Shown here in pieces: positions 20,831 to 45,453 of a stretch of DNA of 64,000 bases (its first letter is position 1; every line of letters begins with the position of its first letter). Position numbers and translations under genes: made by a program. Source of the stretch: an uncultured Ruminococcus sp. GTDB lineage: Bacteria > Bacillota > Clostridia > Oscillospirales > CAG-272. The stretch covers positions 1 to 64,000 of the forward strand of contig CACWOQ010000012.1 in the NCBI GenBank assembly GCA_902762505.1, given 5' to 3'. Under the pieces are notes generated by a model, which saw nothing but the letters and a program-made list of their open reading frames with translations, was not told the origin of the DNA and ran no database searches.

Positions 20831-20857
20831 GTCTGAGCTTCCCAAAAACTGAATATT

Positions 20858-20986
20858 ATTATTTTCGGGGGAGCCTTTAAGGCTCAGGTGAAATTCCAAA
20901 CCGGTGGTAAAGTCCACTAACAGCGCAAGCTGCCGAGCAGGCGAAATTCCTGCACCGACGGTAAAGTCCGGATGAGAGAAAATAAT
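20858..20986 (+). ncRNA. FMN riboswitch (RFN element)
   Basis: The conserved RFN blocks are present in order: TTTCGGGG near the 5' side, GGTGAAATTCC (20887-20897), ACCGGTGGTAAAGTCC (20900-20914), GCGAAATTCC (20941-20950), ACCGACGGTAAAGTCCGGATG (split here by its conserved bases) and a GAGAGAA end. The P1 helix is a perfect 9-bp pairing of 20858-20866 with 20978-20986. FMN binding normally lowers expression of riboflavin genes; here the regulated gene is the riboflavin transporter ribU downstream. Confidence 0.95.
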
Positions 20987-21018
20987 GGCGCTTCAAACAC
21001 GCCTAAAGAAAGGTTTTA

Positions 21019-33911: not shown

Positions 33912-34729
33912 ACCGAAAGCATCTGCCTCAGTTCTGCGGCTTTTTCACGCGCGAGGCAAAGAAAGCCGTCTGCGTCGAGATCCTTGTATACGTCGTGCGT
34001 GTTTCTGTTCGGCTTTGAATTGCGTGTCAATTCAAGCGTAAGCTCGCCGTAAAAGCCGTATTTTTTCAAGCGGTCCGCTACCGATCTCCAGTCCGTGATC
34101 CCGTCAAACGGCATAAGATGAGCGTCGTCAAGCCAAGTCATTTCGTTTCTGTCCGTCATTCCCATGTTGTCGTTCAGATGAACGCAGGAAAGACGGCTGC
34201 CGTACAGCTCAGTCATATCTCTGCCGTAGTTATAACACAGCTCGTGACCCGTGTCCCAGCAGAACCCGACGTAACCGGAGCGGAACCTGTCCATCACGGC
34301 GGCGAGGTATTCCGCGCCCTCCGTGTTTTCAAACGCAACTTCTATCCCTATTTTTTCGGCGCGCTTTACGACGCGGCAGAATCTCTGCAAGCCGATCTCC
34401 GTCGGCTCGTGACGGTCCATACCGATTATCGCGTGCATGATGATGCGCGGCACGCCGGCGTCTTTGCATTCATTTACGCAGGCGATCAGCTTTTCCTTTA
34501 CGTATTCTCCCTTGTCGCCCGGCTCCCACATAGCGTCGACCTCGTTGAAAGGCGCGTGAACGGACTGATACAACAGCCCCTCTTTGTCCGCCAGCTCCGC
34601 GATACGCCTTGTGTTTCCCTCGTGCCACGAGGTGAAAAAGCCGTCAAAGCCCGCCGCTTTTATATGCGGCAGCATTTCGGGTACGTTCAGCCCGTATCCT
34701 ATCCCGGTGTTGATACAAAGCTCGTGCAT
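33908..34729 (-). CDS. Sugar phosphate isomerase/epimerase-like TIM-barrel protein
   Basis: The 273-residue protein is an AP-endonuclease-2-type TIM barrel. Metal-binding residues appear as E in AFENTEG near 153, D and H in CWDTGHE near 180, H in VHLND near 208, and a late ELTLELT strand near 247. Family members include hydroxypyruvate isomerases and sugar epimerases. It overlaps the trkH stop by one base and the NapH gene by 4 bp, so it is translated within the K+ uptake operon, yet its job there is not clear. Confidence 0.85.
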   Translation of the reverse strand: MHELCINTGIGYGLNVPEMLPHIKAAGFDGFFTSWHEGNTRRIAELADKEGLLYQSVHAPFNEVDAMWEPGDKGEYVKEKLIACVNECKDAGVPRIIMHAIIGMDRHEPTEIGLQRFCRVVKRAEKIGIEVAFENTEGAEYLAAVMDRFRSGYVGFCWDTGHELCYNYGRDMTELYGSRLSCVHLNDNMGMTDRNEMTWLDDAHLMPFDGITDWRSVADRLKKYGFYGELTLELTRNSKPNRNTHDVYKDLDADGFLCLAREKAAELRQMLSV

Positions 34730-36168
34730 TATTTGTGCCTCCAGGTGGACGGTGAGAATAAGATGATCATCGGCATTATTTCAAGCCTGCCGAAAAGCAT
34801 ATCGAGCGAAAGGACGATCTTCGAAAAAACGGAGAATCCGGAGAAGTTGCCGGCGGGTCCCACAACGTCGCCGAGACCCGGTCCGATGTTGTTCAGACAC
34901 GCGAGGGCTCCGGTGAAGTTCGTCTCGAAGCCGTATCCGTCAACGGAAATGGCTATCGCCGAGATGATGAGGACCGTAAGATAAAGCGCGATATAGTTGA
35001 CGGCTGATCTCACCGTCTCCTCGGGGACCGGCTCGCCGTCTATACGCACCGTGTTGACGGAGCGCGGATGGAGCATGTGCCTTATCTCGCGAATCGTGTT
35101 CTTGAATACGATCAGAAGCCTCGAAAGCTTGACGCCGCCGGCTGTCGATCCGGCGCAGGAGCCTGTGAACATAAGGAACACGAGCAGCATTTTCGTCAGT
35201 CCCGGCCATTGACTGAAATCACGCGTGGAAAATCCGCTCGTCGAAATAAGTGATGTCGTCTGGAAAAACGAAGCTCTGATACATTCTCCGAAATTCTCAA
35301 AGCTGTGATACGTTTGTACGCATATAACGGCGACGGAGATCGCGGCAAGGCTGAGATAAACCTTCAGCTCTTCATTTTTGAAGATCTCGCGCCATCTGCC
35401 TATGAGTATGAAGAAATAGAGGTTGAAGTTTATGCCGAATATCAGCATGAATACGGATATGACCCATTCGGCGGCTGGATTGTTGTACCCGGCGATGGAT
35501 TCGTTCATGACCGAGAATCCGCCGGTACCGGCTGTGCCGAACGCGCTGACGAGCGAATCGTATAGCGGCAGCCCCGTGAAGAGCAGCGCTATGACCTCCG
35601 TTATCGTCAGAACGATATATATGCCGTAGAGGATTATAGCGGTGTGACGGAGCTTCGGGACGAGCTTGCCTTTTGTCGGACCGGGGACTTCGGCGCGGAG
35701 CAGATATATCGCGTGTCCGCCCTGCGGCAGTATCGCAAGCATGAAGACCAGCACGCCCATACCGCCCATCCAGTGAGTGAAGCTGCGCCAGAACAGGACG
35801 CCGCGCGGCAGTCCCTCTATCACGCGCAGTATGGATGAACCGGTCGTCGAAAAGCCGGAGCACGTTTCAAAAAACGCGTCGACGTAGCTCGGTATCGCGC
35901 CGGAAAGAGTGAAGGGAAGCGCGCCGAAAAGCGACATAAGAAGCCACGAAAGCGCCACCGTTACGTAGCCTTCCTTGGCGTATATCTTTGTGTTTTTCGG
36001 CTTTTGCAGTATACCCGGAAGCGAAACGGCGACGAGTATCCCGACCGTTATGAGAAACGGCATGACAGGTTCGCCGTAGATCGCGGCGACGAGCATCGGT
36101 ACGAGAAGGAACGCCGCCTCGATCAAGAGTATCACGCTCAAAAGGTATAATAGCATTCTGTAATTCAT
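34729..36168 (-). CDS. trkH: TrkH-type potassium transporter subunit
   Basis: The 479-residue integral membrane protein of the SKT superfamily has four pore-loop repeats. Filter segments read SGFSTTGSS, GTAGTGGFS, LISTSGFSTRD and NNIGPGLGDV, close to the classical TrkH filter. The length and long N-terminal helices match TrkH rather than KtrB. It should bind a TrkA-type ring at its cytosolic face. It is the fourth gene of an operon with trkA, ktrB and ktrA; it lies 13 bp after ktrA, not directly after the two-domain trkA. The order suggests two interleaved systems. Confidence 0.9.
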   Translation of the reverse strand: MNYRMLLYLLSVILLIEAAFLLVPMLVAAIYGEPVMPFLITVGILVAVSLPGILQKPKNTKIYAKEGYVTVALSWLLMSLFGALPFTLSGAIPSYVDAFFETCSGFSTTGSSILRVIEGLPRGVLFWRSFTHWMGGMGVLVFMLAILPQGGHAIYLLRAEVPGPTKGKLVPKLRHTAIILYGIYIVLTITEVIALLFTGLPLYDSLVSAFGTAGTGGFSVMNESIAGYNNPAAEWVISVFMLIFGINFNLYFFILIGRWREIFKNEELKVYLSLAAISVAVICVQTYHSFENFGECIRASFFQTTSLISTSGFSTRDFSQWPGLTKMLLVFLMFTGSCAGSTAGGVKLSRLLIVFKNTIREIRHMLHPRSVNTVRIDGEPVPEETVRSAVNYIALYLTVLIISAIAISVDGYGFETNFTGALACLNNIGPGLGDVVGPAGNFSGFSVFSKIVLSLDMLFGRLEIMPMIILFSPSTWRHK

Positions 36169-36181
36169 AATAACGTCTGCC

Positions 36182-36826
36182 TTATAATCTGAAGCATTTG
36201 CGCAGATCCTTCATATCGCCGATGACGTAGAGCACGTCGCCCTCCGCCATTACGGTATCGGGACCCGGTATGATGACCTTGTGATCTCTTTTTAACGATA
36301 TCACGTTGACGCTGTATTTTCTGCGCACGTCAAGCTGTACGAGGTTCTTCCCGACCCATTCCCCGGGCAGAGCCATTTCATATATCGAATATTCGGAATC
36401 AAGCTCGATGAAATCGAGTATCGCGTCCGATGAGAGCTTTATCGCAAGCCGTTTTGCCGTCTGCTTTTCCGGGTATACGACCTCGTCCGCGCCGTTGCGC
36501 AGAAGGAATTTTTCCTGCACGTCGTTTGACGCGCGGGATATGACCTGTTTTGCGCCGAGCTCCTTGAGCAGCGCGGTTATCTGCAAAGACGACTGAAAAT
36601 TGTCTCCGATGCTGACGATACACACGTCGTAATCGGATACTCCGAGAGAGCGCAGAAGCTCCGGGTTCGTCGCGTCGCCGATCTTTGCGTCGGTAACGTA
36701 CGGCAGGATCTCGTTTATGCTTTTTTCGTCCGTATCCACCGCCATTATCTCGCATCTGAGCGCGTTCATGGTGGAGGCGACGTGGCAGCCGAACTGACCG
36801 GCGCCGATAATCAGAACTGATCTCAT
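36182..36826 (-). CDS. ktrA: KtrA-type potassium uptake regulatory subunit
   Basis: The 214-residue cytosolic protein has one RCK/TrkA-N domain (GAGQFGCHVA nucleotide-binding motif at residues 7-16, acidic tip VDTDE near 32) and one TrkA-C domain (about 136-214, including VIGDMKDL). One N and one C domain is the KtrA plan; rings of eight gate KtrB through ATP/ADP or NAD binding, and the C domain can sense c-di-AMP. It lies between the ktrB-like gene (4 bp gap) and the trkH-like gene. Confidence 0.88.
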   Translation of the reverse strand: MRSVLIIGAGQFGCHVASTMNALRCEIMAVDTDEKSINEILPYVTDAKIGDATNPELLRSLGVSDYDVCIVSIGDNFQSSLQITALLKELGAKQVISRASNDVQEKFLLRNGADEVVYPEKQTAKRLAIKLSSDAILDFIELDSEYSIYEMALPGEWVGKNLVQLDVRRKYSVNVISLKRDHKVIIPGPDTVMAEGDVLYVIGDMKDLRKCFRL

Positions 36827-36830
36827 AATA

Positions 36831-38177
36831 CTATCCTATCGAAATTTTTTCCATCGGCAGCCGCGAATCGGTATCCGTACCGGACGGCAGAGCCGCGTAT
36901 ATAAGCGTCAGCACCCCGACTCTGCCGAGGAACATCAACGCCATAAGGATCACGTGGGAAACGGTCGACAAAGACGGCGTAAGCCCGAGAGTAAGACCCA
37001 CCGTGCCGACCGCGGAGCCCGTTTCAAACAGGCAGTCCGAAAGCGGGAGTCCTTCTATGAGACTTATCGCCGCCGCGGACGATGTGAAAAGAAACAGGTA
37101 TATAAACAGTATCGCGCCCGCGTTTCTTACCGCGGATTCGGGGATCCTGCGTCCGAACGCCTCCGCGTCGTCGCACCGTCTGATGACGGATACGGCGGCG
37201 ATAAGCAGAACGGCGAGTGTCGTCGTCTTCATGCCGCCCGCGGTCGAGCCCGGGGAGCCGCCGACGAGCATAAGCGCCGTCATAAGCATTTTGCCGGGAC
37301 CCGTCATCGCGGACAGATCCGTTGTGTTGAAGCCCGCCGTCCTCGACGTTACGGACTGGAAAAGACTGTGAAGAAGTCTTGCACCGAACGGCTCGCTCCG
37401 GTATTCGGTGAAGAAGAACGCCGCCGCCGGCAAAACAATCAGCGCCGCGGACGTCACGAGTATGATCTTTGACTGTACGGAATACTTTTTCAGCCTGAGT
37501 CCGAACCGCCTCATATCGTCCCACGTCATAAAGCTGATCCCGCCCGAGATGATGAGTATCATCACCACCGCGCAGACGTATCCGTTGTCGTGATAGGACG
37601 TCAGAGATGAAAACGGCGATCGGACGCCGAAAAGATCGAAGCCGGCGTTGCAGAACGCCGAAACGGAGTGAAAAACGGAATACCATATCCCGCGCAAAAC
37701 GCCGAGATCACGTATGAAAACGGGGCAGAGCAGAACGGCGCCGGCGCCTTCGATCACGGCGGAGGTTTTAAGTATGAACCCCGTCATTTTAACGATGCCG
37801 CCGACCTGCGGCGCGGAGATTGATTCCATCATCGTACTGCGCTGGCGCAGACCGATCCGCTTCCCGGATAGTTTTGCGGCGGCGACGGCTATCGTAACGA
37901 CGCCCATGCCGCCCGTCTGTATCAGAAGCAGGATCATCATCTGTCCGAACAGCGACCAGTGCGTCGCCGTGTCAACGGTCACAAGTCCGGTGACGCACAC
38001 AGCCGAAACGGACGTGAACAGCGCGTCGGAAAAACGCGTGAAGCTTCGGTCAGCCGACGATACGGGCAGACAGAGCAGAGCCGCGCCGAGCAGGACTATG
38101 AGCAGAAAACCGCTTATTATGACCTGCGGTGAGGAAAAGCCCTTCCACCGCACGCGTTTGCTTACGGTTTTTCGCAT
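36831..38177 (-). CDS. ktrB: KtrB-type potassium transporter subunit
   Basis: The 448-residue membrane protein has the four-repeat SKT architecture with filter segments VCVTGLV, FCNAGFDLF, SRTAGFNTTD and GTVGLTLG, which match the KtrB group (T-x-G or N-x-G filters) rather than TrkH. Length fits KtrB. It forms a K+ or Na+/K+ uptake dimer with KtrA, whose gene is immediately downstream. It overlaps the trkA stop by one base (TAATG). A preceding trkA with two domains is not its usual partner. Confidence 0.88.
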   Translation of the reverse strand: MRKTVSKRVRWKGFSSPQVIISGFLLIVLLGAALLCLPVSSADRSFTRFSDALFTSVSAVCVTGLVTVDTATHWSLFGQMMILLLIQTGGMGVVTIAVAAAKLSGKRIGLRQRSTMMESISAPQVGGIVKMTGFILKTSAVIEGAGAVLLCPVFIRDLGVLRGIWYSVFHSVSAFCNAGFDLFGVRSPFSSLTSYHDNGYVCAVVMILIISGGISFMTWDDMRRFGLRLKKYSVQSKIILVTSAALIVLPAAAFFFTEYRSEPFGARLLHSLFQSVTSRTAGFNTTDLSAMTGPGKMLMTALMLVGGSPGSTAGGMKTTTLAVLLIAAVSVIRRCDDAEAFGRRIPESAVRNAGAILFIYLFLFTSSAAAISLIEGLPLSDCLFETGSAVGTVGLTLGLTPSLSTVSHVILMALMFLGRVGVLTLIYAALPSGTDTDSRLPMEKISIG

Positions 38178-39535
38178 TATCTTAAAATATCCTTGATGCT
38201 GCTTATCTTCTCGCCCGCGGATACGACGACGACCGTGTCGCCGCTGTTGATCGTATCATCGCCGGACGGGATGATGATCTGATCCTTGTGGGAGATACAG
38301 ATGACCAGTACGCCGCGCTTCGGACGGAGCTTTTTGAGCGGTATGCCCGTCAGCCCTTCGATCTCGTCCTTTATGACGAATTCAACGGCTTCGGCTTTTC
38401 CGTCCATGATCTTGTGGAGCGATTCAATTTCTTCAACGCCCGTCGCGTTCATTTTGGATCTGACGTAGCGCAGGATGTAGCCGGCTGTCGATGATTTGGG
38501 GGAAACGACGCTGTTGATGCCTACGCTCTTGAAGAAATCCACGTATGACATCTGGTTTATCAGCGTTATTACCTTCGGCACGCCGATCGACTTGGCGTAC
38601 ATTGAAACGATCGCGTTTTCCTCATCCGAATCGGACAGAGCGAGGAACGCGTCCGTGCGCTCTATGCCCTCTTCAAGCAAAACCTCCTGCCGCGCGCCGT
38701 TGTCGCATACGACGGAGCAGTCGAACTCTCCGGAAAAATCGCGGCAGATCTCCTTGTTTTTCTCGATCACGGTCGAGGTGAATTTGCTTTTCTTCAAAAG
38801 TCCCTGCAGATAGTACGTTACGCGGCTGCCGCCGAATATCATCATATCCTTCAATCTGTGGCGGTAGATCTGCGCCGCCTTGAAGAACGAGTTCGTATGA
38901 TCCTCGGGTACGGTCACGCCGATGACGTCGCCGCTTTCAACGTGATAATCGCCGGACGGGATTATTACGTCGTTGCCGCGAAGCACGCAGCAGACGAGGA
39001 ATTTCATATTCAGCTCCGAACGCAGCTCGTGCAGAGTCTTCCCGATAAACGGCGATTCCGCCGTTATCACGAATTCCGCAAGCTCGACTCTGCCGCGGCA
39101 GAACGTTTCAAGCTTGGCGGCGGACGGGAAGCGGAGCATGCGGTATATCTCTTTCGCCGCGTAAAGCTCCGGGTTTATGGTAAGCGAAAGGTTCATATCC
39201 GCGCGCATCAGCTGCATAAGCTCGCCGTATTCGGGGTTTCTCACACGTGCTATCGTATGATGCGTGCCGAGCTTGCGGGCGGCTGAACAGCAAAGGATGT
39301 TTATTTCGTCCGACGACGTGACAGCGATAAGCAGATAAGCCTTGTCCGCCCCGGCTTTGCGGAGGACGGAAATGCTTGCGCCGCTGCCTTCCACGCCGTA
39401 AACGTCGCAGTTGTTGCAAAGCTCCGATAAGGCGATCGGATCGTCGTCGACGACCGTTATATCGTGTCCTTCTTTTGATAACTGCATGCAGATGGCGGAG
39501 CCGACCGTGCCGCAGCCTATGATAATAATATTCAT
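38177..39535 (-). CDS. trkA: TrkA-type potassium uptake protein with two RCK domains
   Basis: The 452-residue protein holds two complete RCK units: IIGCGTVGSAI and VVDDD near the N-terminus, a C domain (about 140-220), then a second nucleotide-binding domain (MIFGGSRVTYYL, about 230) and a final C domain to residue 452. This double form is TrkA, the peripheral partner of TrkH. The gene leads the operon from a promoter at 39572-39600. Its natural partner, trkH, is the fourth gene, with the ktrB-ktrA pair in between. Confidence 0.9.
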   Translation of the reverse strand: MNIIIIGCGTVGSAICMQLSKEGHDITVVDDDPIALSELCNNCDVYGVEGSGASISVLRKAGADKAYLLIAVTSSDEINILCCSAARKLGTHHTIARVRNPEYGELMQLMRADMNLSLTINPELYAAKEIYRMLRFPSAAKLETFCRGRVELAEFVITAESPFIGKTLHELRSELNMKFLVCCVLRGNDVIIPSGDYHVESGDVIGVTVPEDHTNSFFKAAQIYRHRLKDMMIFGGSRVTYYLQGLLKKSKFTSTVIEKNKEICRDFSGEFDCSVVCDNGARQEVLLEEGIERTDAFLALSDSDEENAIVSMYAKSIGVPKVITLINQMSYVDFFKSVGINSVVSPKSSTAGYILRYVRSKMNATGVEEIESLHKIMDGKAEAVEFVIKDEIEGLTGIPLKKLRPKRGVLVICISHKDQIIIPSGDDTINSGDTVVVVSAGEKISSIKDILR

Positions 39536-39676: not shown

Positions 39677-40717
39677 ATGAAAGGACAGATAACAGCGCTT
39701 ATTAAGCCGGTATCCGGCGCCTGCGGGCTTGACTGCAAATACTGCTTTTACCGCGAGCTCGACCCGGGTGGAGGCGTTATGGATGAAAAGACCGTAGACG
39801 CGCTTTTGTCGTTTCTGCCGCGCGGCGTCCGGGTCAATTTCGCGTTTCAGGGAGGGGAGCCGCTTTTGCGCGGCGCGGACTTCTACCGTGATTTCGCCCT
39901 GCGCGTAAAGGCGGCAGGGATCGACGCCGCGTACAGCATACAGACGAACGGCGTCATGATCGACCGTGAGTATTGCCGTCTTTTCCGCGATCATGATTTT
40001 CTTGTTGGTCTGTCGCTCGACGGGACCCGCGCCTGCCACGACGCGGCAAGGGTCGACAAAAACGGCAAAGGAACGTATGACCGGGTGATCGCTGCGGCGG
40101 AGCTTTTACAAAGCTGCGGCGTACCGTTCGACGTGCTCACGGTCGTCGGCTCGCACAACTGTCACGGCGCGGCGGAAATATACGCGGATTATAAAAAACG
40201 CGGATTCCGTATCGTTCAGCTCATACCGTGCCTGCCGCCGCTTCATGGCATGGAGGGCGAGTCTTGCGACGTGTCGGATTTCTTCATTGAATTCTTTGAT
40301 CTGTGGTACCGGGACGTCAGATCCGGCAAAGCCGTATTTGACGTGCGCGAGTTTTCAGAGCTTTCGGACGCGCTCCGCGGCGGGCGCCCGGGCTGCCGGT
40401 ACGGCGGCGTCTGCACGCCGCAGTTCGTCGTCGAATCGAACGGAGATCTGTATCCGTGCGACTTCTACGTGAAGCCGGAATACAGGACGGGATCGGTATT
40501 CGACACCCCGATCGACGAAACGCTTAAAAGCGAAGGGATGAGGCGCTTTATCCGCGACAGCCGTGAAAACGCGGAGATTTGCCGTCTCTGCCCGTATCTG
40601 TCCGTGTGCCGCGGTATGTGCCGGAGGATGAGGACGCTGTTCCGGCAGTTTCCCGTCTGTCCGTGGGCAAGACTTATATCACACGTTACAAAACAAAGGG
40701 GCTGTCGCAAGTTATGA
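39677..40717 (+). CDS. Radical SAM/SPASM protein, anaerobic sulfatase-maturating enzyme-like
   Basis: The 346-residue protein has the radical SAM motif C16-x3-C20-x2-C23 (CGLDCKYC), a QGGEPLL glycine motif and a SPASM C-terminal domain with C-x2-C, C-x5-C and C-x3-C cysteines for auxiliary clusters (GVCTPQF, YPCDFYV, CRLCPYLSVCRGMC). anSME enzymes turn a Cys or Ser of sulfatases into formylglycine; no sulfatase is in the window. The last residues (QRGCRKL) are encoded inside a MITE-like element whose left end supplies the stop. The normal C-terminus may be replaced, though all cluster cysteines precede it. Confidence 0.82.
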   Translation: MKGQITALIKPVSGACGLDCKYCFYRELDPGGGVMDEKTVDALLSFLPRGVRVNFAFQGGEPLLRGADFYRDFALRVKAAGIDAAYSIQTNGVMIDREYCRLFRDHDFLVGLSLDGTRACHDAARVDKNGKGTYDRVIAAAELLQSCGVPFDVLTVVGSHNCHGAAEIYADYKKRGFRIVQLIPCLPPLHGMEGESCDVSDFFIEFFDLWYRDVRSGKAVFDVREFSELSDALRGGRPGCRYGGVCTPQFVVESNGDLYPCDFYVKPEYRTGSVFDTPIDETLKSEGMRRFIRDSRENAEICRLCPYLSVCRGMCRRMRTLFRQFPVCPWARLISHVTKQRGCRKL

Positions 40718-40819
40718 TTTTTGCGCTTGGCTCTATACAAATGTAACAAAAAATCAGTCTCGCACATTAAAAACGAGACTGATTTTTTGTTGAGTTTGTT
40801 AATGCTATGCGACAGCCCC
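40698..40819. mobile_element. MITE-like element with 12-bp terminal inverted repeats
   Basis: The ends GGGGCTGTCGCA (40698-40709) and TGCGACAGCCCC (40808-40819) are perfect inverted repeats of the kind found at IS-element termini. The flanks are also partly inverted (AAAACAA and TTGTTTT). The 122-bp body codes for nothing but holds an 18-bp perfect hairpin. No transposase is nearby, so it would be mobilised in trans. It supplies the stop of the radical SAM gene and ends 5 bp before the lamin-tail/CotH gene. Confidence 0.65.
40745..40791. terminator. Strong bidirectional terminator inside the MITE-like element
   Basis: A perfect 18-bp stem (40745-40762 with 40774-40791) has an 11-base loop and A- and T-rich arms. 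It would stop both convergent transcripts. Confidence 0.85.
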
Positions 40820-40824
40820 TTGTT

Positions 40825-43800
40825 TTATATTTTGAGCCCGTAGGAGCGGAGATCGGCGTCGGAAAGACCGAAATACGATTTCATGTGCTTTATGACGTTA
40901 ACGTCGCGTTCGCGGAGCCATCCTTCGACAGACGCTATATGAGTCTCCCAGCGCGTCATCGACGAAGGCGCCGACATGAGTATGCCTGAGATATATCTGT
41001 CGTCGTTTTTGTTGCGGAAGCCCCAGCGCGCGATGTGATACTCCATCTCCTCGCTTATCTCGTTCGTAAGCTCGCGGAGAAGGGGAAGCAGCCTGTCGGG
41101 ATTGAGCGTGTCGTTCAGAAGCTCGCAGAATCTTGAAATGAATTTCTTTTTGAACGTGCTGTTTTTGATAAGTCCCTGGATTATGCCGTATATCTTTTTA
41201 TCCTGCTTGAAAACGTAGTTGAATCTGCTTTCTTCGGATGACATGCTCCAGTCGAAATCGTACGGGATCCAGCGCCATTTCGCCGTGTCCGTCCGCTCGC
41301 GGTAGAATTTGATGTTTCCGGGGTCGGTGTTGGCGAAATATATCTGCGATATCCAGTAGTCGATATAGTTGTCAATATCCATACGCGAGCAGACGTAGGC
41401 GTAATTGTCTTCGTTCGACATATTCTTTGTCGTTACGAATTTGTAAAGCTCGTTGTAATTCGTGCTCGTGCCGGACTGAACGATCGACGAGCCCTTCATC
41501 CTGTCGAGGTTGTCGGGGTCGGCGCCGGTGTGGTTGGCGACGAATTCGTCTGAAATACGCTCGCGCAGATCGTAAATGCCGTAATAATCGCCGTTAAGAT
41601 AAACGACGACCGGACGGTAGTTCATGACCTCGCAGTTTATCTTTCCGAGCAGAGCGCGGGCGATAAACGCGTCGCGTATGTGCGAGCGGTTCGCGTCCTG
41701 GCCCGAGCCGCGGAGAACGAGTGAAGAGAAGACGTTAATGTAATCCTCGCCGAAGAACGGATATACGACCTCTTTTATACCGTATTTGTCCTTCAGATTG
41801 ATCGAAACACTCTTCTGATCGTGTACCCGGCTGTACTGACCGAATACCTTGATGCCGGCGTTGAAGTTGAGCACCTGTCTGCCGCTCTCGTCGATATACG
41901 TGAAGCTGACGGGACGCTCCCAGCTTTGCCAGTAGTTCGCCTTCGGCGCGTCCTTGAAGAACAGATTCTCTTTCTCCGAACCGCCAAGCGACGGATCGTC
42001 GTATTTCATCGACTCGGTATCAAAGTTCGGACCGTCGGCGAATATACCCGTCTTTTCGGAGAAAAGATCGTTCGGATCGGCGTTGAGGAATACGACCGGC
42101 ATGTTGTGCACGCGGCCTACTATGAACGAGACCGAGACCTCGTCCGAGGGAAGGGCGTCGCTCTTGAAAGCGCGTGCGCGTATCGACGTCGTTTTATCGA
42201 TCGTTATGGGAGAGCGGTAAAGCGTCGACGCCTGAGTTGGGGCGGTGCCGTCCGTAGTGTAGTAAACGATACATCCCGCGGGAGCTTTTATCGTCACGGC
42301 GGTCCCCGCTTCTACGTATCCGCCTTCAAGGCTGAAAGACGGCGCGCCTACGGATTTTGAATAAGTCACCGTACTGTTTTTCGCACCGGGAGTGACCTGC
42401 GTGAAATAATACAGGGTGTCGTCATCGTCTGATACGCGCCCCGCCGAGGTACGGTCGAAGAGAAGACCGGTGACGACGCTGTCGACCACGGTGCCGTTTT
42501 TATCGTACAGATAAATGTCGTTGCCGTAGCGGTTGAGACCGAGATCGACGTAGACGGAATCCGTCTTGCTGTCGTATTTCGTCTCGTCGCCGAAATATAT
42601 GATCCTGTAGCCTCCGGCTTTGACCTTTACCGTCGGCAGCCATACCGCGCGGTCGAACGTCTTTTTTCCGATATAGAGCTCGGAGAGATCAAGATCGTTT
42701 TCCGTCGGGTTTTTTATCTCAACGAAATCGTACAGCTTGTAATAATCGTACAATTCCCCCGACGAATATGATTTTCCGTCAGGGGAGCTGTCAAGTGTGG
42801 CGTTGACTGCGACCACTTCGCTTATATATGCTGTTTTGTACGCCGGATGTCTTGCGCTGTTTATGTCTTCAAAGCCCGGCACGTCGTTTTTTGCGTTTCT
42901 GGTGGCGCGGGGGAAGAACAGCCATTTATCGGGATTTTCGGGATCGCGTCCGCAGGTCATGTTCGATTCAAGATCGTAGACCGTGCATCTGTCCATCTCG
43001 TCGCCTCTGCCGTTGTAAATGCCGAGGGACTCTTCCTTGCCGGAGAGGGTGAAGCTTGCGTGCAGCTCGCCGCCCGCGTATTCTTTGTCCTTGCCGAGCA
43101 TGAAGACGGTCAGATATCCGTCGGGCTGAAGCGTTACGTCCGGGAATTCCCATTTCGTCTTGTCCGCTTCGTCGTCCGAAAGGAACAGGCCTTTGAGCTT
43201 TACTACCTTTTCACCGTAGTTGTATATCTCGACCCAGGCGCCGTAATCGCCTTCCTCGTCGGTAAACGTGATGCATTTCTTCGTTGCGAATTCGTTTATG
43301 CGTACCGTGTTTACGGTCTTGTCGGTGAGGTTCAGGGGCTCGTCCGTCGACTGCTTTGGCTGATATTCCGCCGTGCCGTTCTTTTCACCGGGCGTCGGTT
43401 CGCTTAAAAGCACGGTGTGACCGTCCGGCGCGGGCGCCGCGGATATATCCGACGGGCAGTTGGCGGGGATCGTTATCCTGCCGATCTCGGTGCCGCCGGA
43501 GGTGAGCAGGGAAACTGTCTCGCCGGCTTTGCTGAGCTTGAACGGAAGGTGTATCGACGTCGTCTGTTCGTTATAAACGTTTCTGCCGGACGCCCATATG
43601 ATTATGTATTCGCCGGGCTTCAGCTTAACGTCGGGCAGGATGCCCTTCGTGCGGTTGTCCGGATTGTCGGTTATCAGGTAGTTTTTGAGCGATATCTCGG
43701 ATGAGCCGCCGTTGTAAAGCTCTATCCAGTCGCTGTATTCGCCGTAGTCGTCCGTCAACGTGGATTTGTTTGACGCCATGACCTCGGACAGCATAAGTCC

Positions 43801-43986
43801 GTTTTCGTTCGGCTTGATGATGACCTCGGGCTGCGGCAGCGTTTCGATCGCTGTATCGGAACCGGGCGCCGACGACGACGGCGCCGTGCCGCTTACGTCA
43901 AACGAATCGTCGGGAGTGCTGAGATCGCACGCGGCGAGGCTTAAAAGCGTAATGACCGCGAGCGCAACCGATATAATTCTTTTCAT
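40825..43986 (-). CDS. Lipoprotein with lamin-tail domains and a CotH kinase domain
   Basis: The 1053-residue product has a lipoprotein signal (lipobox LAAC, cysteine 20). Lamin-tail-like domains follow (NTDDYGEYSDWIELYN near 76, then two more with WVEIYN and DFVEIKN motifs), a chitobiase C-terminal-like beta-domain near 540 (YYTTDGTAPT) and a CotH-type kinase domain from about 650. That domain carries LVLRGSGQDANRSHIRD, VYLNGDYYGIYDLRER and PYDFDWS motifs. CotH proteins are atypical kinases that phosphorylate secreted proteins, known from spore coats. It ends the operon with the VTC-type polymerase and the DUF4956 protein. The kinase target and surface role are not known here. Confidence 0.82.
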   Translation of the reverse strand: MKRIISVALAVITLLSLAACDLSTPDDSFDVSGTAPSSSAPGSDTAIETLPQPEVIIKPNENGLMLSEVMASNKSTLTDDYGEYSDWIELYNGGSSEISLKNYLITDNPDNRTKGILPDVKLKPGEYIIIWASGRNVYNEQTTSIHLPFKLSKAGETVSLLTSGGTEIGRITIPANCPSDISAAPAPDGHTVLLSEPTPGEKNGTAEYQPKQSTDEPLNLTDKTVNTVRINEFATKKCITFTDEEGDYGAWVEIYNYGEKVVKLKGLFLSDDEADKTKWEFPDVTLQPDGYLTVFMLGKDKEYAGGELHASFTLSGKEESLGIYNGRGDEMDRCTVYDLESNMTCGRDPENPDKWLFFPRATRNAKNDVPGFEDINSARHPAYKTAYISEVVAVNATLDSSPDGKSYSSGELYDYYKLYDFVEIKNPTENDLDLSELYIGKKTFDRAVWLPTVKVKAGGYRIIYFGDETKYDSKTDSVYVDLGLNRYGNDIYLYDKNGTVVDSVVTGLLFDRTSAGRVSDDDDTLYYFTQVTPGAKNSTVTYSKSVGAPSFSLEGGYVEAGTAVTIKAPAGCIVYYTTDGTAPTQASTLYRSPITIDKTTSIRARAFKSDALPSDEVSVSFIVGRVHNMPVVFLNADPNDLFSEKTGIFADGPNFDTESMKYDDPSLGGSEKENLFFKDAPKANYWQSWERPVSFTYIDESGRQVLNFNAGIKVFGQYSRVHDQKSVSINLKDKYGIKEVVYPFFGEDYINVFSSLVLRGSGQDANRSHIRDAFIARALLGKINCEVMNYRPVVVYLNGDYYGIYDLRERISDEFVANHTGADPDNLDRMKGSSIVQSGTSTNYNELYKFVTTKNMSNEDNYAYVCSRMDIDNYIDYWISQIYFANTDPGNIKFYRERTDTAKWRWIPYDFDWSMSSEESRFNYVFKQDKKIYGIIQGLIKNSTFKKKFISRFCELLNDTLNPDRLLPLLRELTNEISEEMEYHIARWGFRNKNDDRYISGILMSAPSSMTRWETHIASVEGWLRERDVNVIKHMKSYFGLSDADLRSYGLKI

Positions 43987-43999
43987 TTTACTCCTCTTA

Positions 44000-44683
44000 T
44001 CAAATGTATTCGCCGGTGCTCTTTACGAGCGTCACGGAGGATACGCCGGGGTATGCGTTGAGCTTGTTCAGGAATTTTGTGGAACCGGAGATAAGCGTGA
44101 CCTCCATCGAAAGCTCGACGGTGTTTTCAACGAGAGCCTTTGATTTCAGACGGCTTTTCTTCGTGGATTTTTCGATATAGCGGACGACGGGTTCCTCGTC
44201 GTCGGGGTTTACGTTTATCATGAGTATATAGGAATCCGCGGCGGAGGGCAGGCGGGAGGCGACGATGAGTATCACGCCGACGACAACGGCGCCGACAGCC
44301 GCGAGACCGAGCAGGTTTGCGCCGCACATGATGCCCGCGCAGATGGAGTAGTACAGGAATACTATGTCAAGCGGATCCTTTATCGCCGTTCTGAAACGGA
44401 TGATCGAAAGCGCGCCGACCATACCGAGCGAAAGAACGATGTTCGACGTTATCGTCATGAGGATCAGTGTCGTGATGACGTCCATCGCAAGAAGCGAAAC
44501 GGCGAACGTGCGGGAGAAGAGCACGCCGCGGTAGCTGATGCGGTAAACGACGATTATGAGAAGTCCGATGAGTATGGATACCGCCATGGTGAGCAGAAAT
44601 CTGCCCATGCCGAGATCCTGGTTGAAGTTTTCGACGAAGCCTTTTTTGAAAACGTCTGAAAATGTGGTTAAAGAGTATATCAT
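44000..44683 (-). CDS. DUF4956 membrane protein
   Basis: The 227-residue protein has three to four transmembrane helices, the conserved ALSIIRFRTAIKDPLDI cytosolic loop of DUF4956, and a C-terminal soluble domain that resembles a small ACT/ferredoxin-like sensor. Its function is not established, but it sits between a VTC-domain polyphosphate polymerase gene and a CotH-kinase lipoprotein. In eukaryotes the VTC domain works with membrane helices that translocate polyphosphate; DUF4956 could play that part. That is an inference from context. Confidence 0.8.
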   Translation of the reverse strand: MIYSLTTFSDVFKKGFVENFNQDLGMGRFLLTMAVSILIGLLIIVVYRISYRGVLFSRTFAVSLLAMDVITTLILMTITSNIVLSLGMVGALSIIRFRTAIKDPLDIVFLYYSICAGIMCGANLLGLAAVGAVVVGVILIVASRLPSAADSYILMINVNPDDEEPVVRYIEKSTKKSRLKSKALVENTVELSMEVTLISGSTKFLNKLNAYPGVSSVTLVKSTGEYI

Positions 44684-44698
44684 GACGGTGGTCCTTTC

Positions 44699-45403
44699 TT
44701 AACTAAACGTTCTTCCGAACACGTATTTTGAACATGAGCTCTGCATCGTGGATTCATCCGGAAGCAGATTTCTTATATGATCGGGCAGGAAATGGTCGTA
44801 TTTGACCTCCAGCACGACCCAGCACGGCGGTACGGTATAAACAAGAGTTCCGTAATCGAGAAACATATCGACGCCGGCGCCGGAGCCCTTGATATTTGAA
44901 TCGAGCGTGATCCTCACGTTCGACGCGTCGCATACGAACGCACGGCGCGTGTATTCGACTATCGTCTTTGGGCGGTATCCCTCGACGTTTATCATATGGT
45001 AAAACTCACGGGCAAGATCGGAGTCAAGCGAGAGAAGGCTTTCGCCGCGGCGGTACATTATATCGTCGTAGATCTGACGGTCTATCCTGACGGATTCCTT
45101 TTTGCCGAGCGGTCCGCGCTTGCTTTTACGCTCCAGGCTGATGAAAGAATCGCTGTGGTTGTACGATCTGATACGGTATTTTTTACGCTTCAGAAGCCCG
45201 GCGGCTGTGCCGGCAAGCGATCTTTCGTCCGGCGTGTCAAAATACACGCTGCTTATAAGATATTTGCCGCGGTCTACCGCGTATTTGTCGAATTTCATCA
45301 CCTGACACAGACGCGAGGTAAGCTCGGTCGCCTGTACCGGCGTTATGAAGTATTTCAGCTCGTGCCTGTAATCCTGCGAGGAATCCTGCATCAGGCGGTC
45401 CAA
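44699..45403 (-). CDS. VTC-domain polyphosphate polymerase
   Basis: The 234-residue protein is a stand-alone VTC domain of the CYTH-like tunnel fold. Motifs in order: YRHELKYFI, SVYFDTP, KKYRIRSYN, SLERKSK, ARRAF-like TRRAF, RITLDSN and LEVKYDHFLP. These basic and acidic residues line the tunnel in which yeast Vtc4 makes polyphosphate from ATP. I used the TTG at 45403 because an AAGGGGGTGG box lies just upstream; the ATG four codons later has no box at the right distance. It leads a three-gene operon with its own promoter. Confidence 0.85.
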   Translation of the reverse strand: MDRLMQDSSQDYRHELKYFITPVQATELTSRLCQVMKFDKYAVDRGKYLISSVYFDTPDERSLAGTAAGLLKRKKYRIRSYNHSDSFISLERKSKRGPLGKKESVRIDRQIYDDIMYRRGESLLSLDSDLAREFYHMINVEGYRPKTIVEYTRRAFVCDASNVRITLDSNIKGSGAGVDMFLDYGTLVYTVPPCWVVLEVKYDHFLPDHIRNLLPDESTMQSSCSKYVFGRTFS

Positions 45404-45424
45404 GACACCACCCCCTTTTAATTT

Positions 45425-45453
45425 AATATATCACATTGTTTAAAGTATATCAA
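45425..45453 (-). promoter_or_regulatory. Promoter of the VTC-DUF4956-CotH operon
   Basis: On the minus strand TTGATA, a 17-bp spacer and TATATT lie just ahead of the VTC gene, about 25 bp from its start. It separates this operon from the dacF-type gene upstream. Confidence 0.7.

Follow-up and report, generated by a model that had tools for sequence, protein, structure and literature searches.

Accessory genes of Pel operons in Gram-positive bacteria comprise cotH, a polyphosphate polymerase gene, DUF4956 and DUF4832 (PMC7112168, 2020). In Streptococcus intermedius, SIR_1592, SIR_1593 and SIR_1594 were deleted singly (PMC12345266, 2025). Deletion of SIR_1592, which encodes the DUF4956-type protein, led to increased Pel accompanied by reduced aggregation, and deletion of SIR_1594 (CotH) lowered both; the authors encountered no such synteny beyond Pel loci. 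Here we analyzed an operon coding for the same three protein families in an uncultured Ruminococcus sp. (GTDB lineage Bacteria; Bacillota; Clostridia; Oscillospirales; CAG-272). It lies in a window of 64,000 nucleotides, positions 1 to 64,000 of the forward strand of contig CACWOQ010000012.1 (assembly GCA_902762505.1), and consists of genes for a VTC protein, a DUF4956 membrane protein and a CotH lipoprotein. The first-pass annotation of this DNA regarded the physiological role of the trio as poorly described; with PMC7112168 and PMC12345266 the trio is better covered than was assumed there. The trio is thus known; its existence outside Pel loci runs against the published statement. The S. intermedius locus combines the same three families, described there as an MgtC-type membrane protein carrying an ACT domain, a secreted CotH and a polyphosphate polymerase domain. 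In contrast to the Pel trios, the window operon has no Pel genes nearby, no PelG match in its genome and a promoter of its own, and its CotH gene is placed downstream and encodes three lamin-tail domains and a lipobox.

Three other systems are related. The Clostridium perfringens locus NELoc-2 (PMC2879425) was described as VTC, 'tubulin', VTC, 'tubulin', CotH, conserved protein, HEAT and glycosyltransferase. It resembles a glycosyltransferase-linked type of the trio described below (GT2 type; loci L040, L091, L105 and L242) in having VTC and CotH near a glycosyltransferase, whereas the window type contains neither HEAT nor GT2 genes and no cyclic di-GMP (c-di-GMP) riboswitch. Judged from size and place, the 'tubulin/FtsZ' reading frames CP4_0461 and CP4_0464 (222-226 aa) are probably misannotated DUF4956 proteins. 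The yeast VTC complex (Vtc4 with Vtc1/Vtc3) shares the tunnel polymerase fold and its residues with the window VTC, which may likewise depend on a membrane partner. The spore-coat kinase CotH (5jd9) shares its kinase domain, including the NxD and PWDYD motifs, with the window lipoprotein; the latter, in contrast, is predicted to be exported and is joined to lamin-tail and chitobiase-like domains. At a probability of about 0.5, we consider the operon a cell-surface or biofilm-type module with a membrane-bound polymerase of the polyphosphate type at its core.

Results

A three-gene operon with a conserved promoter

All three genes lie on the minus strand. VTC comes first, followed by DUF4956 and CotH, with intergenic gaps of 15 and 13 bp. 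The first gene (44699-45403) starts with TTG and encodes a stand-alone VTC domain of 234 aa (PF09359, 130.5 bits; cut-off 23 bits). It is followed by a gene for an MgtC-like DUF4956 membrane protein of 227 aa (44000-44683; PF16316, 47.9 bits). The third gene (40825-43986) encodes a lipoprotein of 1053 aa in which three lamin-tail domains are combined with one chitobiase-like and one CotH kinase domain. Every domain match in the three proteins exceeded the curated Pfam cut-off. A sigma-70-like promoter on the same strand (45425-45453; TTGATA-17-TATATT with extended TG) precedes the VTC gene, and the first base of its -35 box is position 45453, at which the first-pass annotation had ended the operon. 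The -35 region CTTGATA, the -10 region TGATATA, the ribosome-binding site and the TTG start are common to three congeneric genomes (G011, G078 and G123), while the spacer has diverged. Gene order and the upstream D-Ala-D-Ala carboxypeptidase gene are kept in these congeners as well. Since the trio is present in the three congeners and in dozens of other genomes, its conservation is well above chance. Reading frames, Pfam domains and the conserved promoter confirmed the first-pass annotation in that the genes form one minus-strand operon behind one promoter.

A bidirectional, intrinsic-terminator-like stem loop, read from the sequence without assignment to a strand, follows CotH at 40748-40788. 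It carries a T tract of the rho-independent type and was missed by the automatic scan because of its loop limit. An outer inverted repeat, AAGGGGCTGTCGCA, flanks this terminator (window 40696-40821). Its 14-mer occurs only once more in the genome, on contig C50, by which a repeat family was ruled out.

The VTC protein resembles the yeast polymerase Vtc4

Among 70 VTC relatives, residues R13, E15, K17, Y54, D56, K75, R77, R79, Y81, E91, K93, K95, K102, R153, R164, T166, D168, E199, K201 and K226 are invariant. This set includes the tunnel residues R13, K17, R77, R79, K93, K102, R153, R164, E199, K201 and K226. The first-pass annotation had named the absence of such residues as a refutation of its reading, but they are present. 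A PDB search with the single VTC sequence gave no matches; a profile search succeeded and found yeast Vtc4 with an E-value of 1.8e-21. In the profile alignment R13, K17, R77 and R79 correspond to Vtc4 R196, K200, R264 and R266, and K93, K102, R153 and R164 to K281, K294, R361 and R373. The C-terminal profile matches Vtc2/Vtc3 alone, and weakly; E199, K201 and K226 are therefore without a residue alignment to Vtc4. From motif and fold we infer that K226, which sits within the C-terminal SKY motif, equals Vtc4 K458, and that E199 and K201 equal E426 and K428. An AlphaFold2 model of the protein (mean predicted local distance difference test, pLDDT, 89.6) had yeast Vtc4 as best PDB match, with a template modelling score of 0.72-0.75, and ygiF, AtTTM3 and other tunnel hydrolases ranked below the Vtc4 structures.

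Tunnel hydrolases and polymerase are told apart by an acidic patch and the catalytic Lys-458 (PMC4641920). Positions of this patch are basic in the window protein at R13 and K201; a third, K102, is uncertain, and E15 stays acidic. The protein combines a modelled Vtc4-type tunnel fold with basic tunnel residues, and sequence and model suggest a polymerase-like enzyme. In contrast to the yeast complex, the SPX domain and the DUF202 membrane part are absent from the 234-aa protein, whose sole Pfam domain is VTC, and the MgtC-like partner is encoded separately.

PPK1 gave no match in the window's genome (2.6 Mb, 89.7% complete; PPK2 not searched). For this reason VTC may be the main polyphosphate-type enzyme of this genome, as read from an incomplete assembly and a search that covered PPK1. 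Across the family, the presence of PPK1 does not separate VTC-positive (12/97) from VTC-negative (2/49) genomes (p 0.14).

VTC and DUF4956 form a constant pair with exchangeable partners

In a phylum sample, VTC and DUF4956 were present in the identical 28 of 219 genomes, and DUF4956 adjoined VTC at 33 of the 35 VTC loci. Among 146 genomes of the window's family, 97 contain VTC and 96 DUF4956. Fisher values for co-occurrence in phylum and family (5e-36 and 2e-38) ignore relatedness and are descriptive. Taking the family and named-genome surveys together, DUF4956 neighbours VTC at 166/172 loci, at one of them two genes away, with a median gap of 14.5 bp. The first-pass annotation had named rare co-occurrence of DUF4956 with VTC and CotH genes as a refutation; for VTC and DUF4956 the surveys show the opposite. 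Moreover, the distance matrices of the two proteins are closely correlated (mirror-tree r 0.93 for 165 pairs, as compared to at most 0.06 in permutations). By genome comparison, VTC and DUF4956 are an obligate pair and the constant core of these loci.

The mirror-tree correlation of VTC and CotH is lower (r 0.66 as compared to 0.93), which on the same type of evidence marks CotH as a looser partner than DUF4956, interchangeable with Cthe_2159 lipoproteins. At the 97 VTC loci of the family, CotH was linked in 24 cases and Cthe_2159 in 28, with both at one locus. The VTC tree requires at least 10 swaps between them. The idea that CotH is always the third partner was rejected; Cthe_2159 lipoproteins reach a similar frequency in the family. 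Other neighbours of the pair were PelG, a DUF3492 glycosyltransferase, GT2, HEAT and EAL/GGDEF proteins, and two-component genes were linked at many VTC loci. The window's genome itself harbors another VTC-DUF4956 pair on a different contig (locus L023, G000:C11, 6991-10120). There the third gene encodes a Cthe_2159-type lipoprotein, and two response regulator/histidine kinase pairs (duplicated two-component genes) precede VTC-DUF4956.

DUF4956 resembles MgtC

The DUF4956 model (pLDDT 84) consists of about five membrane helices followed by a C-terminal ferredoxin/ACT-like domain. In a Foldseek search, the C-terminal domain of MgtC (2lqj) was the sole PDB match below 0.001, obtained with the C-domain at an E-value of 4e-4; no experimental structure of an MgtC membrane part was among the matches. 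Pfam MgtC (PF02308) was touched by 20/68 DUF4956 members at E-values up to 0.1 (best 1.5e-4). The window's DUF4956 gave no PF02308 match and is therefore outside the curated MgtC family. In an hhalign profile comparison of DUF4956 with MgtC proteins from related genomes, the alignment scored 93.5% over the full length (199 columns). Profile and model together place DUF4956 in the MgtC superfamily, with a predicted common membrane core and an ACT-like C-domain; for SIR_1592 an MgtC-plus-ACT reading is already published (PMC12345266). The expectation of a yeast-like membrane part does not hold for this protein, which resembles MgtC instead of a DUF202 channel. Invariant residues are G90, R96 and G117, and R98 is close to invariant. 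A predicted membrane helix ends at R96 and R98; this end would be on the cytosolic side provided that the ACT domain is cytosolic.

The CotH lipoprotein is predicted to be exported and catalytically intact

Pfam assigned CotH (PF08757, 158 bits), the lamin-tail domain LTD (124.6 bits in 3 stretches) and CHB_HEX_C_1 (63.6 bits) to the third protein, whose N-terminus MKRIISVALAVITLLSLAAC contains a lipobox (LAAC). A single-sequence PDB search with the whole protein gave no matches, and a profile search succeeded. The kinase residues N886, D888 and D910 are near-invariant among relatives and match the CotH structure 5jd9, whose NxD and PWDYD motifs are retained. An export-type N-terminal hydrophobic stretch was present in 82/87 linked CotH proteins, 30 of them with a lipobox, and a similar hydrophobicity cut-off scored 1/165 VTC controls as positive. 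Linked CotH proteins therefore appear to be exported with intact catalytic residues. This agrees with the surface kinase assumed in the first-pass annotation; its fixed place in the trio does not hold, as CotH is one of several partners.

Seven CotH-domain matches were observed in the window's genome (G000). CotH is therefore a multi-copy surface family in this genome.

Most trios are not associated with Pel genes

Trios were counted as non-Pel when neither PelG nor PelF was present within a distance of eight genes. They make up 20 of the 24 trios in the family and 47 of the 62 in named genomes; the named-genome survey used a CotH-clade VTC alignment, so that its proportions are biased toward CotH partners, while the existence of non-Pel trios is unaffected. 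Non-Pel trios were found in Clostridioides difficile isolates, Clostridium, Butyrivibrio, Desulfosporosinus and several Paenibacillus, among others. PelG reached the cut-off in 6/146 family genomes and gave no match in the window's genome or its three congeners (four genomes of the genus searched). Pel biosynthesis genes were not seen in the neighbourhood of the window operon, which thus does not classify as a Pel accessory module. In Pel loci CotH precedes VTC, whereas in most non-Pel trios it follows DUF4956. On the VTC tree the Pel state needs 2-3 changes and forms a subset.

The VTC gene of one Pel-linked trio (L116, G108:C111) is interrupted by a stop that leaves two fragments, due to either gene disruption or a sequencing error.

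A GT2-linked type is preceded by a c-di-GMP riboswitch

In the GT2 type the order VTC-DUF4956-CotH is followed by a protein of ~740 aa, a HEAT protein and a GT2 glycosyltransferase; L091 adds an EAL/GGDEF protein. The DNA obtained for L040 and L098 covers the downstream part incompletely, and their type was assigned from the visible genes. All five GT2-type operons (5/5) contain a c-di-GMP-I riboswitch roughly 30-85 nt upstream of VTC (L040:9762-9849, L091:9100-9186, L098:9272-9366, L105:9401-9488 and, from a separate survey, L242:9834-9917). Rfam detected no riboswitch ahead of the VTC gene in the tested loci of the window type or the Pel type.

Other features of the window

Convergent with CotH, positions 39677-40717 code for a radical SAM/SPASM protein that resembles an anaerobic sulfatase maturase (267 bits, under the curated cut-off). 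Translations of 34729-39535 suggest two TrkH/KtrB-like potassium-transporter membrane proteins and two NAD-binding TrkA/KtrA-like proteins. An FMN riboswitch (RF00050, 79.7 bits) at 20857-20987 is unrelated to the operon.

Discussion

The proposed module rests on what comparison of sequences from many genomes showed, namely an obligate pair, a predicted Vtc4-like tunnel, an apparently exported and motif-complete CotH, partner exchange and the riboswitch of the GT2 variant. A cytosolic VTC would use ATP as a polyphosphate-type polymerase in obligate partnership with the MgtC-like DUF4956. The exported effector encoded by the third gene, here the lamin-tail/CotH lipoprotein, would phosphorylate extracytoplasmic or matrix proteins. 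The core pair is constant, and the surface partner varies between CotH, Cthe_2159 lipoproteins and a CotH associated with a Pel or GT2 polysaccharide synthase. Polyphosphate would be the product, DUF4956 might gate or pass it, and CotH may act on surface proteins. The changes in Pel and aggregation on deletion of the S. intermedius DUF4956 or CotH gene (PMC12345266) also speak for the module. Several observations weigh against such a module. Deletion of the VTC gene SIR_1593 was without reported change in aggregation or Pel (PMC12345266), and E15 retains one of the acidic-patch glutamates typical of tunnel hydrolases. The literature searches yielded no biochemical experiment in which a stand-alone bacterial VTC made polyphosphate. 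Moreover, 48/165 pairs were without a recognised surface partner among the genes examined, some of them owing to contig ends, and the window type has neither an adjoining polysaccharide synthase nor an upstream Rfam riboswitch.

The strict chain of the first-pass annotation, in which VTC makes polyphosphate, DUF4956 is the channel and a surface CotH senses or uses the polymer, seems unlikely. It would fit a polymerase-like VTC, the near-invariant R96/R98 at the helix end of an obligate membrane partner, the CotH gene in the same operon and a genome, 89.7% complete, in which PPK1 is unmatched. However, CotH is linked at just 24/97 family VTC loci, and DUF4956 resembles MgtC, which is no known polyphosphate channel. 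Furthermore, the S. intermedius VTC deletion behaves unlike the CotH and DUF4956 deletions with their defects; because it had no reported phenotype, a simple linear pathway is disfavoured, at least for Pel-dependent aggregation. It is more doubtful still that VTC-DUF4956 exports polyphosphate from which the exported CotH kinase, placed outside the cell where ATP is lacking, would obtain phosphoryl groups directly or via a nucleotide cycle.

Somewhat better placed than the strict chain, yet still improbable, is a regulator or sensor. In this reading a nucleotide or short polyphosphate would be bound or hydrolysed by VTC, and the ACT-like domain of DUF4956 would tune production of polysaccharide or surface protein, much as other membrane proteins are modulated by MgtC. 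The MgtC-like fold with its ACT-like domain, the rise of Pel on DUF4956 deletion, the hydrolase-like E15 and the two-component genes at many loci are consistent with it, whereas the invariant K226, two acidic-patch positions that are basic as in Vtc4 and a polymerase as best fold match argue for a polymerase. We regard it as very improbable that the window operon is simply the remnant of a Pel accessory cassette after loss of the Pel genes from this genome. Related VTC proteins do occur in Pel-linked trios, and the published context is Pel. Nevertheless, non-Pel trios are the majority in both surveys, mostly with a different gene order, Pel linkage arises as a subset on the VTC tree, and PelG is rare in the family (6/146 genomes).

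The proposed surface module built on a polyphosphate-type polymerase widens the Pel-biofilm cassette to a module of the Bacillota in which a polyphosphate-polymerase-type enzyme would be locked to an MgtC-like membrane protein. One variant of the trio is tied to c-di-GMP via its riboswitch. The operon makes it possible to test for a bacterial polyphosphate synthase of the VTC type whose membrane partner is not DUF202, and to test what serves as phosphate donor of an exported kinase.

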